Origin: Bacteroidaceae bacterium | Lineage (GTDB): Bacteria > Bacteroidota > Bacteroidia > Bacteroidales > Bacteroidaceae | Reading direction: 5' to 3' | NCBI GenBank assembly: GCA_017616445.1 | Contig: JAFZYE010000028.1 | Location: 1-55,810, forward strand | Length of the DNA stretch: 55,810 nucleotides | Part shown: positions 3,464 through 36,388 of the stretch, piece by piece | Numbering within the stretch: the stretch's first letter is position 1 | Layout of the letters: each line of letters starts with the position of its first letter | Program-made: the position numbers and the translations under genes | Notes under the pieces: generated by a model | The model's database searches: none | Seen by the model: the letters and a program-made list of their open reading frames with translations, nothing else | Told to the model about the DNA's origin: nothing

Positions 3464-4300
3464 TCAATTATTATTTAAAGTAGGCTTTCGCCAATAGTAG
3501 ATGAAGAGTGGAATGCAGATGGCTGCTGCTACGACAGCTGCACTATAGAGAACAGGGGGTGTCTCGAAGATATCTGCCGTGGGGTCTTGCTCTTTTCCGG
3601 TAATCAACATCACAGCGACTGCAAAACCATTGTTGATGATATGATAGAGTAGCGAAGGTATGATGCTCTGTGATTTGGTGTAGAGGATGCCTAACATCAC
3701 ACCTAAAGCACTGGCAAAGAGTATCTGTATGGGGTTCCAATGAATAATGCCGAACAAGAGTGATGACACCAAGATGGCAATCCATGGGTTGACTCCTCGC
3801 CGCAACATGCCGCCCAGCATTCCGTGACGGAAGATGATTTCCTCACTCAGGGGACCTATGAGGACAATCGTAATGACACCTACGGGGTTGTTGGCCAATC
3901 CTTGCATGGTGTCTTCTAATGTGTCTTCTACTCCCAACGCTTGGCCCAGACAACCTGTTGAAACGGCACCTGCGAAGGTGGCAATCAGCATCACTGGAGC
4001 CAAACGCCAACGTAGTCGACCAGGGTTGATTTCTGCGATGAAATGGGGTTTTTCTAACCATTTTGTCGATGTGAGTTTGTATCGGACGGCAATCATAAGA
4101 CCGATGGTGACGAGAGAGGCAAAGCACAACGCAAGGGCAGTCATCCAAGCATAAGATGAGCCTCCTGTCATTTTAGAGACAAGGCCACCCAATAGAGCAC
4201 CTACGATGCCACCCACCAATTGTCCAATTCCGAATATCACCAAGATGCAGGCGATGTCGAGGATGGATTTGTAAGTCTTTGATTGTTTGTTTATCTTCAT
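3464..4300 (-). CDS. CPBP-family intramembrane metalloprotease
   Basis: The 278-aa polytopic membrane protein has about eight hydrophobic segments. The CPBP/ABI signature is intact: GPLSEEIIFRHG with Glu153/Glu154 and Arg158 (EExxxR), FGIIHWNP with His187, and SLLYHIINNGFA with His220 and Asn224. Family members related to Rce1 cleave within the membrane; several protect against bacteriocins or process prenylated substrates, but the target here cannot be inferred. It is the last gene of a likely minus-strand run ompH-murI-CPBP, starting 27 bp after the murI stop. Confidence 0.88.
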   Translation of the reverse strand: MKINKQSKTYKSILDIACILVIFGIGQLVGGIVGALLGGLVSKMTGGSSYAWMTALALCFASLVTIGLMIAVRYKLTSTKWLEKPHFIAEINPGRLRWRLAPVMLIATFAGAVSTGCLGQALGVEDTLEDTMQGLANNPVGVITIVLIGPLSEEIIFRHGMLGGMLRRGVNPWIAILVSSLLFGIIHWNPIQILFASALGVMLGILYTKSQSIIPSLLYHIINNGFAVAVMLITGKEQDPTADIFETPPVLYSAAVVAAAICIPLFIYYWRKPTLNNN

Positions 4301-32135: not shown

Positions 32136-32160
32136 GTTGTTTTCCTTAGTGATTTTTTCT

Positions 32161-32244
32161 GTTCGTGGCCCACGAACACTGATTCGCGGCCCACGAACCC
32201 AGGTTCGCAGTCCACGAACACAGGTTCGTCGCCCACGAACAAGA
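32161..32244. repeat. Array 2 of four palindromes at 21-bp period
   Basis: Units begin at 32161, 32182, 32203 and 32224, exactly 21 bp apart. The first is GTTCGTGGCCCACGAAC. It is homologous unit by unit to array 1 at 14041. It is flanked by an outer inverted repeat GTTGTTTTCC (32136-32145) / GGAAAACAAC (32256-32265) and lies about 160 bp upstream of the purL promoter. Confidence 0.92.
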
Positions 32245-32403
32245 TTTTCCTTTAGGGAAAACAACATGATTCTTCAAGGTCGACAAAACATTTCTCTGGC
32301 AAAAATCAGAGTCATCATCAAAGATGATGGAGTCAAACCTCTTTTTTGTTCCCAATTCTTACGTTTTTCGTCTCATCTCCTTTGCCGTTCAGATATTTTT
32401 TTG

Positions 32404-32411
32404 TAACTTTG
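32404..32411 (+). promoter_or_regulatory. Predicted purL promoter -7 box
   Basis: TAACTTTG matches the consensus. Transcription from about 32418 would give a leader of about 275 nt before the purL start codon. Confidence 0.65.
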
Positions 32412-32432
32412 CAGTGGGAATTAAAATTAACT

Positions 32433-32648
32433 CAACTTTTGCAAGTTGAAAGGAGTTAGCGAAGTTAACGGCCTACGGCCTAGAAGTTAATGGCCTATGG
32501 CCAAGAAGTTAACGCTTCGCTAGACGGAACCAAAGGCTGTATACATCTGCAGACTATCGTCCAGCCGAAGGCGATAACTCCTAGCGAAGCGATAACTCCT
32601 AGCCGAAGGCGATAACTTCGAGCGGTAAAACCGCGATAACTTCCATAG
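32433..32648 (+). repeat. purL leader: opposed arrays of hairpin-plus-TAACTTC units
   Basis: A small hairpin CAACTT-TTGC-AAGTTG (32433-32448) is followed by three 22-bp units starting GAAGTTAA at 32461, 32483 and 32505. A 40-nt centre follows, then four units in the opposite orientation with GATAACTCC/GATAACTTC at 32573, 32591, 32611 and 32635. Each unit has its own small palindrome with varying sequence: GGCC-TAC-GGCC, GGCC-TAT-GGCC, GCC-GAA-GGC (twice), GC-GAA-GC, GCGGT-AAA-ACCGC. The rest of the 32062-32692 interval holds the terminator, array 2 and promoter listed separately. Confidence 0.88.
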
Positions 32649-32692
32649 TTGAGCAAAAATGCGAAACTCAAAATACTTATCAATAAGAAACA

Positions 32693-35600
32693 ATGATTTA
32701 CTTTTTCAGTACACCGCAGAACAGCATCATCGCCGTGAGCATGGGTCATGAGATCAGCTCGAAGGAGACAGATGCCCTTCAGTGGCTTTTCAGTGGCGCT
32801 AAGAAGCTTGACGAGTTGACCGTCAGCGGACAGTTTGCAGGTCCACGCCGTGAGATGATTACTCCTTGGAGTACCAACGCCGTGGAGATAACCCAGAACA
32901 TGGGATTGACTGGTATTGAGCGTATCGAGGAGTTCTTCCCCATTACGGAACAGTCGGACATCGACCCTATGTTGCAGCGTAAATACAAGGAGTTGAATCA
33001 GGACATCTTCACCGTCAACATCAATCCTGCACCCATCCAGCACATCGACAACCTGGAGGAATACAACGAGCAGGAGGGTTTGGCGCTGAGTCCGGAGGAA
33101 ATAGAATACCTGCACAAGGTGGAGGGCCAGTTGGGTCGTAAACTGACTGACTCAGAGGTGTTTGGCTTTGCACAGATCAACTCAGAGCATTGCCGCCACA
33201 AGATATTCGGTGGCACATTCATCATCGACGGCAAGGAGCAGGAAAGCAGCCTGTTCCAGATGATCAAGAAGACAACGCAGGAGAATCCTAACAAGATTAT
33301 CTCTGCCTATAAAGATAATGTGGCATTTGCCCAGGGACCTATCGTGGAGCAGTTCGCCCCCAAGGACCACAGCACCAGCGACTATTTCGTGACGAAAGAC
33401 ATCGAGTCAGTCATCTCGCTGAAGGCTGAGACGCATAACTTCCCAACAACCGTAGAGCCGTTCAACGGTGCCGCTACAGGTACGGGTGGTGAGATTCGCG
33501 ACCGTATGGGTGGTGGAACTGGTTCGTGGCCAATTGCAGGAACAGCTGTCTATATGACCAGCTACCGCAATGGTGAGCATCCTCGTCATTGGCTCTATCA
33601 GACTCCTGAGCAGATACTGATCAAGGCTTCGAATGGTGCGAGCGACTTTGGTAACAAGTTCGGACAGCCACTCATCTGTGGTTCTGTGCTGACATTCGAG
33701 CACCAAGAGACCCCCCAGCCCCCTTTAGGGGGAGAGGAGCCGATGTATGGCTACGACAAGGTCATCATGCTGGCTGGTGGTGTGGGTTATGGCACCAAGC
33801 GCGACTGCCTGAAGGGTGAACCTCAGAAAGGCAACAAGATTGTGGTCGTAGGTGGTGACAACTACCGCATCGGATTGGGTGGCGGAAGTGTCAGCTCTGT
33901 CGATACAGGTCGCTACTCAAGCGGCATCGAGCTGAATGCCGTTCAGCGTGCCAACCCTGAGATGCAGAAACGTGCCAACAACCTGGTGCGTGCCCTCTGC
34001 GAGGAAGACGTGAACCCCATCGTATCTATCCACGATCATGGTAGCGCAGGACATGTGAACTGCCTCAGTGAGTTGGTCGAGGAGTGTGGTGGTACCATCG
34101 ATATGACCAAATTGCCGATTGGCGACACGACCCTCAGCTCGAAGGAAATCATCGCCAACGAGTCGCAGGAGCGTATGGGCCTCCTCATCGATGAGAAGCA
34201 CATCGATCATGTCCGCAAGATTGCAGAACGCGAACGTGCTCCATTGTATGTGGTGGGTGAGACGACAGGCGATGCTCACTTTGCTTTCGAGCAGGGTGAT
34301 GGTGTACGCCCGTTCGACCTCGAAGTGGCGCAGATGTTTGGCCACTCACCAAAGACCTATATGCGCGACGAGACTGTCGAGCATAAATATGCGAACGTTG
34401 AGTACAAACTAGATAATCTAGATATTCTAGGGTATCTAGAAAAAGTCTTGCGCCTTGAGGCTGTGGCTTGCAAAGACTGGCTGACCAATAAGGTGGACCG
34501 CTCTGTGACAGGTAAGATTGCCCGTCAGCAGTGTCAGGGTGAGTTGCAGTTGCCTTTGAGCGACTGTGGTGTGGTTGCCCTCGACTATCGTGGAAAGGCT
34601 GGTATCGCTACTGCTATCGGACATGCTCCGCAGGCAGGTCTGGCTGACCCAGCCGCAGGAAGTGTTCTCTCTGTGGCAGAGTCATTGACCAACATCGTGT
34701 GGGCACCATTGACTGAAGGTCTCGACAGCGTGAGCCTGTCTGCCAACTGGATGTGGCCTTGTCGCAGCCAGAAAGGTGAGGACGCGCGTCTGTTCGCTGG
34801 CGTGAAGGCTTTGAGCGACTTCTGCTGTGCCCTTCAGGTGAATGTGCCAACAGGTAAGGACTCACTCTCGATGACCCAGAAATATCCTGACGGCACAAAG
34901 GTCATCAGCCCAGGAACCGTGATTGTAAGTAGCGGTGGTGAGGTGAGCGACATCCGCAAGGTGGTTTCGCCTGTAGTTCAGAACGTGGATTCTGTGCTCT
35001 ATCATATCGACTTCTCGTTCGACGAACTGAAATTAGGTGGTAGCGCCTTTGCGCAGACTCAGGGAAAGGTAGGCAGCGATGTGCCAACCGTTCAGAACCC
35101 AGAGTATTTCCGTGATGCCTTCATGGCTGTGCAGGAGCTGGTGAACAACGAGCTGCTGCTGGCTGGACATGATATCAGCGCAGGTGGTCTGATTACCTGT
35201 CTGCTCGAGATGTGTTTCGCCAATACGAAGGGCGGATTGCAGATAAATCTCGATGAAATGGGCGAAAAAGACCTCGTGAAGCAGCTGTTTGCTGAGAATC
35301 CTGCTGTTGTGATTCAGGTTGCAAAGGCAAATACGGAGAAGGTGGAAAGCATACTGGCAGACGCTGGTGTGGGCTTTGCCAAGATTGGCGAACCAATTGC
35401 TGAGCGTGTCATCAAGATGAAGAGCGCACAGGGCAACACCTTATTTAATATAGATGAGTTGCGCGATGTGTGGTATTCAACCTCACACGAGCTGGACCGT
35501 CTGCAGAGCATGAACGGTCAGGCTGACGAGCGCTTTGCCAACTATAAGAACCAACCTGTAGAGCACAAGTTCAATGCAGACTTCACAGGAACGTTTGCTC

Positions 35601-36388
35601 AGTATGGCATCTGTCCGGATCGTGACTCAGAACCGTCTGCAGCACGTCCAAAGGCTGCAATCATTCGTGAAAAGGGTACGAATGGTGAGCGCGAAATGGC
35701 TTACTGCCTCTATCTCGCTGGCTTCGATGTGAAGGATGTGATGATGACTGACCTCGTCAGCGGACGTGAAACCCTCGAAGAGATTCAGATGATTGTGTTC
35801 TGTGGTGGATTCTCCAACTCAGACGTGCTGGGTAGTGCGAAGGGATGGGCAGGAGCCTTCCTCTTCAATCCAAAGGCAAAGCAGGCACTCGATAACTTCT
35901 ACGCTCGCAAGGACACCCTCTCGCTGGGTATCTGTAACGGCTGTCAGCTGATGATGGAACTGGGCTTGCTGGGTGTGAAGGGTAGCATGCAGCACAATAT
36001 CAGCCATAAGTTCGAGAGCGGATTCCTTACCCTCAGCATCCCACAGAACGAGTCTGTACTCTTTGGCTCGCTCAGCAACAACAAGTTGGGATTGTGGGTG
36101 GCTCATGGAGAAGGCCGCTTCTCATTGCCTGACCCAGAGAGTGCCTACAACGTGGTTGCGAAGTACAACTATCATGGCTATCCTGCAAATCCAAACGGTA
36201 GCGATTACGATATCGCAGGTATTTGTACAGCTGACGGACGCCATCTGGCGATGATGCCTCACTTGGAACGTGCCATCTTCCCTTGGCAGATGGGCCACTA
36301 CCCAGAGGAGCGCAAGCATGACGATGTGACCCCATGGATCGAAGCATTCGTGAATGGGCGCAAGTGGTGCGAGCAGCATAAAGGATAA
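32693..36388 (+). CDS. purL: Phosphoribosylformylglycinamidine synthase (large single-chain form)
   Basis: This purine-synthesis enzyme makes FGAM from FGAR, glutamine and ATP. It is the 1231-aa single-chain form: N-terminal domain, two AIRS-like halves (ETHNFPTTVEPFNGAATGTGGEIRDR-type region near 240-265; NVPTGKDSLSM near 720), and a C-terminal class I glutaminase (LGICNGCQLMMELG near 1080; HGEGRFSLP). Residues about 339-349 (ETPQPPLGGEE) are encoded by an in-frame C/G-run palindrome (33707-33736), between SVLTFEH and YGYDKVIMLAGGVGYG, where a short loop is expected. It has its own promoter and an unusual hairpin-rich leader, and ends at a bidirectional terminator. Confidence 0.97.
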   Translation: MIYFFSTPQNSIIAVSMGHEISSKETDALQWLFSGAKKLDELTVSGQFAGPRREMITPWSTNAVEITQNMGLTGIERIEEFFPITEQSDIDPMLQRKYKELNQDIFTVNINPAPIQHIDNLEEYNEQEGLALSPEEIEYLHKVEGQLGRKLTDSEVFGFAQINSEHCRHKIFGGTFIIDGKEQESSLFQMIKKTTQENPNKIISAYKDNVAFAQGPIVEQFAPKDHSTSDYFVTKDIESVISLKAETHNFPTTVEPFNGAATGTGGEIRDRMGGGTGSWPIAGTAVYMTSYRNGEHPRHWLYQTPEQILIKASNGASDFGNKFGQPLICGSVLTFEHQETPQPPLGGEEPMYGYDKVIMLAGGVGYGTKRDCLKGEPQKGNKIVVVGGDNYRIGLGGGSVSSVDTGRYSSGIELNAVQRANPEMQKRANNLVRALCEEDVNPIVSIHDHGSAGHVNCLSELVEECGGTIDMTKLPIGDTTLSSKEIIANESQERMGLLIDEKHIDHVRKIAERERAPLYVVGETTGDAHFAFEQGDGVRPFDLEVAQMFGHSPKTYMRDETVEHKYANVEYKLDNLDILGYLEKVLRLEAVACKDWLTNKVDRSVTGKIARQQCQGELQLPLSDCGVVALDYRGKAGIATAIGHAPQAGLADPAAGSVLSVAESLTNIVWAPLTEGLDSVSLSANWMWPCRSQKGEDARLFAGVKALSDFCCALQVNVPTGKDSLSMTQKYPDGTKVISPGTVIVSSGGEVSDIRKVVSPVVQNVDSVLYHIDFSFDELKLGGSAFAQTQGKVGSDVPTVQNPEYFRDAFMAVQELVNNELLLAGHDISAGGLITCLLEMCFANTKGGLQINLDEMGEKDLVKQLFAENPAVVIQVAKANTEKVESILADAGVGFAKIGEPIAERVIKMKSAQGNTLFNIDELRDVWYSTSHELDRLQSMNGQADERFANYKNQPVEHKFNADFTGTFAQYGICPDRDSEPSAARPKAAIIREKGTNGEREMAYCLYLAGFDVKDVMMTDLVSGRETLEEIQMIVFCGGFSNSDVLGSAKGWAGAFLFNPKAKQALDNFYARKDTLSLGICNGCQLMMELGLLGVKGSMQHNISHKFESGFLTLSIPQNESVLFGSLSNNKLGLWVAHGEGRFSLPDPESAYNVVAKYNYHGYPANPNGSDYDIAGICTADGRHLAMMPHLERAIFPWQMGHYPEERKHDDVTPWIEAFVNGRKWCEQHKG
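33707..33736. repeat. C/G-run palindromic repeat inside purL
   Basis: GAGACCCCCC + AGCCCCCTTTAGGGGGAGAG lies in frame in coding DNA. The core CCCCCTTTAGGGGG is identical to that of the intergenic copies at 14767 and 18457. Confidence 0.93.

Follow-up and report, generated by a model that had tools for sequence, protein, structure and literature searches.

A probable gene-less miniature of an intervening-sequence-like IVP element in the purL leader of a Bacteroidaceae bacterium

Introduction

The systems already known that lie closest to the locus described here are the intervening sequences (IVSs) of 23S rRNA, MITEs, REPs, the BrickBuilt element, and the TAACTGA heptamer repeats. In the portion of the literature on 23S rRNA IVSs available to us, these sequences are described as being removed by RNase III, and the IVS of Coxiella is described as having a variable number of tandem heptamers ahead of its S23p ORF (PMC4990558). 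The S23/IVP protein is presented, in the accessible parts of two sources, as a protein without a known function (PMC4990558, PMC11270868). For the TAACTGA repeats, the part of the source available to us states that no transfer mechanism was evident (PMC4679880). Among the open-access papers listed on these subjects, we found none that treats IVP genes as repeat-armed intercistronic elements or that describes miniatures of them.

In this study, we analyzed a 55,810-nt stretch of DNA from a Bacteroidaceae bacterium (the window), in which a model reading the letters alone had noted opposed repeat arrays in front of purL and had interpreted them as the leader of that gene (the original prediction). 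The source genome assembly (G000) comprises 2.38 Mb in 81 contigs and is about 70% complete; other genomes and loci are cited by their G and L numbers where they must be told apart.

Results

Structure of the purL-leader array

The original prediction described seven units, three (22-bp period) in one orientation and four in the other. The opposed arrays are indeed present in the sequence, but the left array has four modules and not three, so that four GRAGTTA modules face four TAACTYC modules, with hairpin spacers within the arrays and a 39-nt core between them. The left arm (32452..32520, minus strand) contains one GGAGTTA module (32452–32458) and three GAAGTTA modules (32461–32467, 32483–32489, and 32505–32511), and the 22-nt period holds for these three. 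Its spacers (32470–32480, 32492–32502, and 32514–32520) are the palindromes GGCCTACGGCC, GGCCTATGGCC, and GCTTCGC. The right arm (32564..32643, plus strand) has TAACTCC modules at 32575–32581 and 32593–32599 and TAACTTC modules at 32613–32619 and 32637–32643; here the spacing varies (18, 20, and 24). The right-arm hairpins (32564–32572, 32584–32590, 32602–32610, and 32622–32634) are the palindromes GCCGAAGGC, GCGAAGC, GCCGAAGGC, and GCGGTAAAACCGC. Three features had been overlooked: the core, GACGGAACC...ACTATCGTC (32523..32561, plus strand); the outer hairpins; and the copies elsewhere in the genome. Some other copies have, at their left end, sequence similar to the left outer hairpin, CAACTTTTGCAAGTTG (32433..32448), and the right outer hairpin, AGTTGAGCAAAAATGCGAAACT (about 32648..32668), was identified in the predicted fold.

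The purL gene itself (32693..36388, plus strand; 1,231 aa) lies downstream, outside the element; its name comes from the original prediction, and its homologues were collected by protein search. Upstream of the arrays is the box TAACTTTGC (32404..32412, plus strand), which we take to be a −7-like promoter element of the TAnnTTTG type, with TTTG at 32381–32384, 19 nt upstream of it. All five of the closest relatives (G001, G006, G007, G011, and G014) conserve this box before purL. The arrays thus do lie downstream of a promoter-like box and upstream of the purL start codon, as predicted, and because the box has been kept, the arrays are probably transcribed together with purL.

The element was found in the purL leaders of G000 and G001. 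The latter corresponds to contig CAMYYX010000039.1 of an uncultured-Prevotellaceae MAG, the sole exact match in the genome_contigs collection, and its copy is shorter by exactly 38 nt, i.e., by two right-arm units. In G006, G007, G011, and G014, in which the first 200 residues of PurL are 91–94% identical, the ACTTATCAATAAGAAACAATG start region is kept, as is the box, and the element is absent. The interval from the box to the purL ATG is 33 nt in G007, and the other three genomes have different sequence in it. This pattern of presence and absence points to an insertion common to two species, in a probably transcribed leader.

Other blocks were observed around this gene. The purL leader of G014 (L069) has an unrelated insert-like block of ∼240 nt that separates the box from the conserved start region. 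The window itself contains approximately four palindromic units resembling GTTCGTGGCCCACGAAC (32159–32243) in the interval that runs from the upstream gene to the purL promoter; at the matching stretch in G007 and G001, the units have another stem, GTTGCA...TGCAAC.

Predicted RNA folding and stem variation

The leader RNA (32433–32692) was predicted to fold at −85.2 kcal/mol, with a z score of −6.25 relative to dinucleotide shuffles, none of 200 being as stable. For the array alone (32433–32648), the best predicted fold had −79.8 kcal/mol, with 48 of its 71 pairs spanning the core, and a fold in which pairs were held to a short span had −50.0 kcal/mol. The two alternative structures of the original prediction, i.e., one long stem or separate local hairpins, are therefore both feasible in silico, and the long stem is predicted to be the more stable.

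The compensatory appearance of the stems does have a basis, although a modest one. The two stem pairs were standard in 30 and 33 of the 36 distinct 11-nt spacers (shuffle maxima, 29 and 30), and in the 27 distinct 15-nt spacers, one stem pair of the four exceeded all shuffles (26 of 27; shuffle maximum, 23). In the seven distinct 13-nt spacers, no stem pair rose above the shuffles. A GNA loop was present in 116 of the 132 occurrences of 11-nt spacers, in 5 of the 9 with 13 nt, and in 24 of the 39 with 15 nt. As read from the sequences, these statistics favour selection for hairpins, be it in DNA or in RNA. An absence of covariation among homologues, which had been named as grounds for refuting the prediction, was not what we found; the covariation detected belongs to the repeat family and not to purL.

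A scan of the window against Rfam at the gathering cut-offs returned a single match, a tRNA, and no riboswitch, in agreement with the earlier statement that no known purine riboswitch fits.

Dispersed copies in the genome and genus

The original prediction had proposed that the same units be sought elsewhere in the genome, and they proved abundant. When a 301-nt leader query was used, 54 places were detected in its own genome (E ≤ 0.001), and the core pattern with ≤ 3 mismatches had 31 occurrences in G000 and two each in G001 and G011. It was not detected in the other 14 of the 17 genus members, and the reversed control gave no match in any. A unit-pair pattern with ≤ 1 mismatch was found in 12 of 151 genomes of the family, belonging to 5 of 30 genera (reversed control, 0). 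In the viral_contigs collection, the core pattern matched no stretch and the unit pattern matched one.

The copies adjoin unrelated genes, often within ∼50 nt of a start codon. Among 34 cores tabulated for orientation, of which 6 came from genomes other than G000, 24 were in sense to both neighbours, 4 were antisense to both, and 6 were mixed or one-sided. A purL-specific leader device is difficult to reconcile with this distribution, in which the purL array is one of many dispersed copies beside unrelated genes and is missing from the purL leaders of four relatives.

Several loci had further repeats. At L012, L014, L025, and L028, there are intergenic tandem repeats of 7–9 nt (e.g., GGAGTGACA and AAAGTCT), which at some copies substitute for one arm. 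One genome of another genus has 90 unit-pair matches, many of them at about 877–965 kb of G111:C1 (L128–L130), where the units lie between protein genes and recur at longer tandem periods (65 or 73 nt). At L143 (G011:C4), two inverted copies with the same core (1858–2096 and 3739–4047) flank a 486-aa DUF3575 ORF that adjoins an AraC-type regulator, and this segment could be invertible; the hairpins at L143 are wholly unlike those of the purL leader in sequence.

Gene-bearing copies in the source genome

At two loci of G000, the arms stand apart with a single ORF between them: L013:2118–2510 (130 aa) and L024:4985–5368 (127 aa). Both ORFs belong to Pfam family PF05635, 23S_rRNA_IVP, whose S23 proteins are four-helix bundles (E = 9.1e-33 for L013 and 5.4e-34 for L024), and a copy of the L024 ORF at L160 matches PDB entry 2gsc, Xcc0516 (E = 4.9e-17). 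In these gene-bearing copies, the two halves of the core flank the IVP gene on either side, and the inner left end at L013, GACGAAACCAATGGGTGTTA, is one base off the left half of the miniature cores. The purL copy has the arms and the core and no S23/IVP ORF, which is present in the two split copies. By sequence, L013 and L024 read as the full element and the miniature as its internally deleted form; the reverse order, with a gene entering a core, is possible. Hairpin-bearing TAACTYC arms occurred at only two of the six IVP matches in G000; L177 is bounded by plain TAACTCC arms, and the remaining matches by other repeats.

IVP genes in related genomes

Of 26 chosen genomes, 24 have PF05635 genes, as do 61 of 80 Bacteroidota genomes (the match exceeds the family cut-off in 60); such genes also occur in genomes without the core. 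We sampled 54 rows from 106 matches in the 26 genomes; one place (G004:C23:238283) appeared twice, leaving 53 places. All 51 IVP rows in which both neighbours were called were co-directional with the two, compared with 86 of 164 controls (Fisher, 1.6e-12); the controls were 164 genes from 71 loci. An inverted flank score, calculated by local alignment of 200 nt on each side (L161, with a short flank, was omitted), was ≥ 14 in 36 of 53 IVP rows and in 6 of 164 controls (5.9e-22), whereas 17 of the 53 rows missed it. Among the 79 controls with gaps of ≥ 25 nt on both sides, 6 reached this score, as did 110 of 2,742 pairs of left and right flanks taken from different IVP loci. An earlier control set of 55 genes, largely derived from the window, had given 3 of 55 and was superseded by the 164-gene set. 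Two or more TAACTYC modules in both flanks, in inverted orientation, were present at 10 of 52 IVP genes and at none of the 164 controls; other IVP genes bear other short repeats, e.g., GATTCGTA with hairpins in G013 (L150).

Of 30 phylum-wide loci among more than 150 matches listed, 12 reached the inverted score and 18 did not; of the 29 with both sides available, 22 were co-directional with both neighbours, 5 were antisense to both, and 2 were mixed. Among 10 cyanobacterial plasmid loci, sampled from 25 records with an IVP match, 8 lay between co-directional genes and 2 were antisense to both. On cyanobacterial plasmids, an IVP gene ("four helix bundle protein") stood among CRISPR genes, as cas10-IVP-cmr3 and, twice, cas6-IVP-cas4 (L227, L232, and L234), and at L198, L208, and L214, the IVP ORFs seemed by eye to lie inside other coding genes, methylase-like as judged from the flanking frame.

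The TAACTYC arms follow the protein sequence. The 10 IVPs with such arms had a mean identity of 0.579, compared with 0.337 for random sets of ten, and none of 20,000 random sets was as high (n = 51). In a tree, from which L170 (a partial match) and two duplicate proteins were omitted, 9 of the 10 fell in one clade spanning four genera, with L177 outside it; four members of this clade were not scored as armed (L154, L159, L182, and L184).

We also searched for TAACTGA repeats. Three tandem copies were present in 12 of 296 Bacteroidota genomes, and the 30 loci listed represent 15 distinct arrays, of which one (G301:C5, L245) has an IVP ORF ∼67 nt away. This single case weakly suggests a link between TAACTGA arrays and IVP genes.

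Filled and near-empty sites

Some operon junctions are filled in certain genomes and nearly empty in others. Nine genus members have 1–11 nt from the frdA stop codon to the frdB start codon, and G010 and G012 have 121 nt, whereas in G011 (457 nt) and G014 (446 nt), the gap consists of an IVP ORF and its arms, exactly between the stop and start codons. In G003, 23 nt precede a match beginning at residue 6; these counts omit G001 and the second G011 copy. Between kduI and kduD, the gap is 11 nt in G007, 12 nt in G003, 23 nt in G004, and 35 nt in G002, and is 54, 107, and 160 nt in G011, G016, and G015, respectively; IVP elements are present in G013, G014, and G149, a remnant-like 131 nt in G162, and a miniature-like 125 nt in G000. 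Upstream of frr, there are 21–39 nt in six genomes (G001, G002, G003, G004, G010, and G012) and 53–101 nt in G000, G005, G006, G007, G149, and G162; IVP elements occur in G008 (with TAACTCC arms), G011, and G013, and a TAACTTC miniature of 147–151 nt occurs in G015 and G016. The region differs in five genomes of another genus.

The IVPs that share one site have identities of only 25/94 to 61/105, and this low identity makes repeated insertion at the same junctions likelier than common descent. By eye, neither purL nor frdA-frdB showed a target-site duplication, the purL copy having no exact empty site for comparison.

Discussion

We consider that the purL-leader array is probably a gene-less miniature of a mobile, IVS-like element that inserts into transcribed junctions. 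The full-size form would comprise two inverted arms of TAACTYC heptamers, with optional hairpin spacers, around one IVP (S23, PF05635) gene, and would lie in sense, flanked by co-directional genes and in many cases placed precisely at a stop/start junction. In the miniature, the arms would be retained, with their inner ends joined as the 39-nt core. In the transcript, the arms would pair into one long stem, which, by analogy with the 23S rRNA IVSs, may be cut by RNase III or may simply be tolerated. The IVP would recognise the arms and move both forms, and the miniatures would come from gene loss and not the reverse. The class overall, and L013 and L024 within it, have the makeup of what we propose to call an intercistronic IVP element, and the purL copy is without the gene. 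That this copy sits in a leader and not between two operon genes counts against the intercistronic model.

Other origins for the repeats were considered. The purL-leader element is small, has inverted ends, is present in many copies, and has no transposase gene, all features of a classical MITE, which the DDE transposase of an insertion sequence would mobilise. Its intergenic copies and changing unit number fit this explanation too, and BrickBuilt of Porphyromonas gingivalis, as far as the source text available to us describes it (PMC4596501), is comparable; yet the genes found between separated arms encode IVPs, no target duplication was seen, and the copies are biased toward the sense orientation, so that we regard a DDE-mobilised MITE as unlikely. 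We judge equally unlikely that a Y1 (RAYT) transposase spread these units as REP/BIME-like palindromes, even though they are short extragenic hairpins in inverted pairs, G000 contains one Y1 gene, and the core ends beside the innermost hairpins carry CGTC, like the CGTC-tagged REPs in the accessible part of PMC3733652. CGTC is confined to the core ends, and most units carry CTTC or CTCC and not GTAG or CGTC. In addition, the sole Y1 gene found has other palindromes, CGCCCCTTTGGGGC, and its 3.3-kb locus contains no TAACTYC module, a plain GGAGTTA triplet lying ∼4 kb off in L040. As the assembly reaches about 70% completeness, it may lack a different mobilising enzyme. The Y1 (IS200-like) gene, at L009:1489–1941 (G000:C65) between its own CGCCCCTTTGGGGC palindromes, constitutes a separate REP-like system.

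It is also conceivable, if rather doubtful, that the IVP genes are passengers that landed in older, slippage-prone repeats, the arms being host sequence outside the element. The richness of intergenic regions in other short tandem repeats and the many kinds of IVP arms are consistent with this, but at frdA-frdB, the arms and gene arrive together where nine other genomes have 1–11 nt, and the TAACTYC arms track one IVP clade over four genera. The explanation closest to the original prediction, an RNA regulator dedicated to purL (a riboswitch or an attenuator) that could adopt either of two structures, has in its favour the probable leader position, the strong fold with its alternatives, and the sharing of the element by G000 and G001. 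We rejected a purL riboswitch given the dozens of copies beside unrelated genes, the lack of an Rfam match, and the purL leaders of four close relatives without the element, and a regulator of this kind is now highly improbable. Nothing found points to purines. Under the preferred reading of a mobile IVS-like miniature, any influence on purL would be a by-product: no purine-specific role is expected, and mRNA stability or translation may change.

More tentatively, IVP/S23 proteins may be the mobility proteins of widespread mRNA-level IVSs, of which the rRNA IVSs would be one branch, and the heptamer and hairpin repeats of Prevotellaceae, perhaps with the TAACTGA repeats, would be gene-less miniatures. 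As part of the same tentative proposal, elements with inverted heptamer-array ends would insert in sense at operon stop/start junctions and in leaders, and their stem would be cut out or folded away, and hence tolerated. The relationship of IVP to the retroelement protein Avd raises the thought that movement might pass through RNA.

These observations bring together full-size and miniature forms of one family within one genome, and filled and near-empty operon sites. Arms tied to one protein clade provide a concrete protein/repeat pair to test. The findings also suggest where intergenic heptamer repeats might come from, the spread of which is described as unexplained in the available part of PMC4679880, and they caution against taking such repeat leaders for riboswitches.

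Among known systems, the 23S rRNA IVS with an S23p/IVP ORF, e.g., that of Coxiella burnetii, shares with the present element the gene family, complementary arms, sense orientation, and sporadic occurrence, as far as the accessible part of the source describes it (PMC4990558). The complementary-arm stem has its counterpart here in the inverted arms, with 48 of 71 predicted pairs across the core. In contrast, the present element lies in mRNA leaders or between protein genes and not in rRNA, its arms are arrays of heptamers and hairpins, its gene-less miniatures number in the dozens, and an RNase III step is only supposed. PF05635 is itself described as homologous to Avd of diversity-generating retroelements in the available section of PMC10053308. 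The BrickBuilt MITE is likewise intergenic and multi-copy, with tandem units of ∼20 nt in varying number; it differs in having 23-nt direct repeats in one block between a leader and a tail, and the part of the source available to us does not describe opposed arms or a link to IVP (PMC4596501). The GTAG- and CGTC-tagged REP/BIME sequences, as presented in the accessible text (PMC3733652), are also extragenic hairpins in inverted pairs, with a CGTC-like tag recurring at the present core ends, whereas the present element has TAACTYC linkers, a shared core, many-unit arms, and an IVP in place of RAYT. The TAACTGA repeats similarly place TAACTNN heptamers near start codons, with a reverse set noted after a stop codon, but they have another heptamer and, in the portion of the source at hand, are mostly plain direct repeats (PMC4679880).
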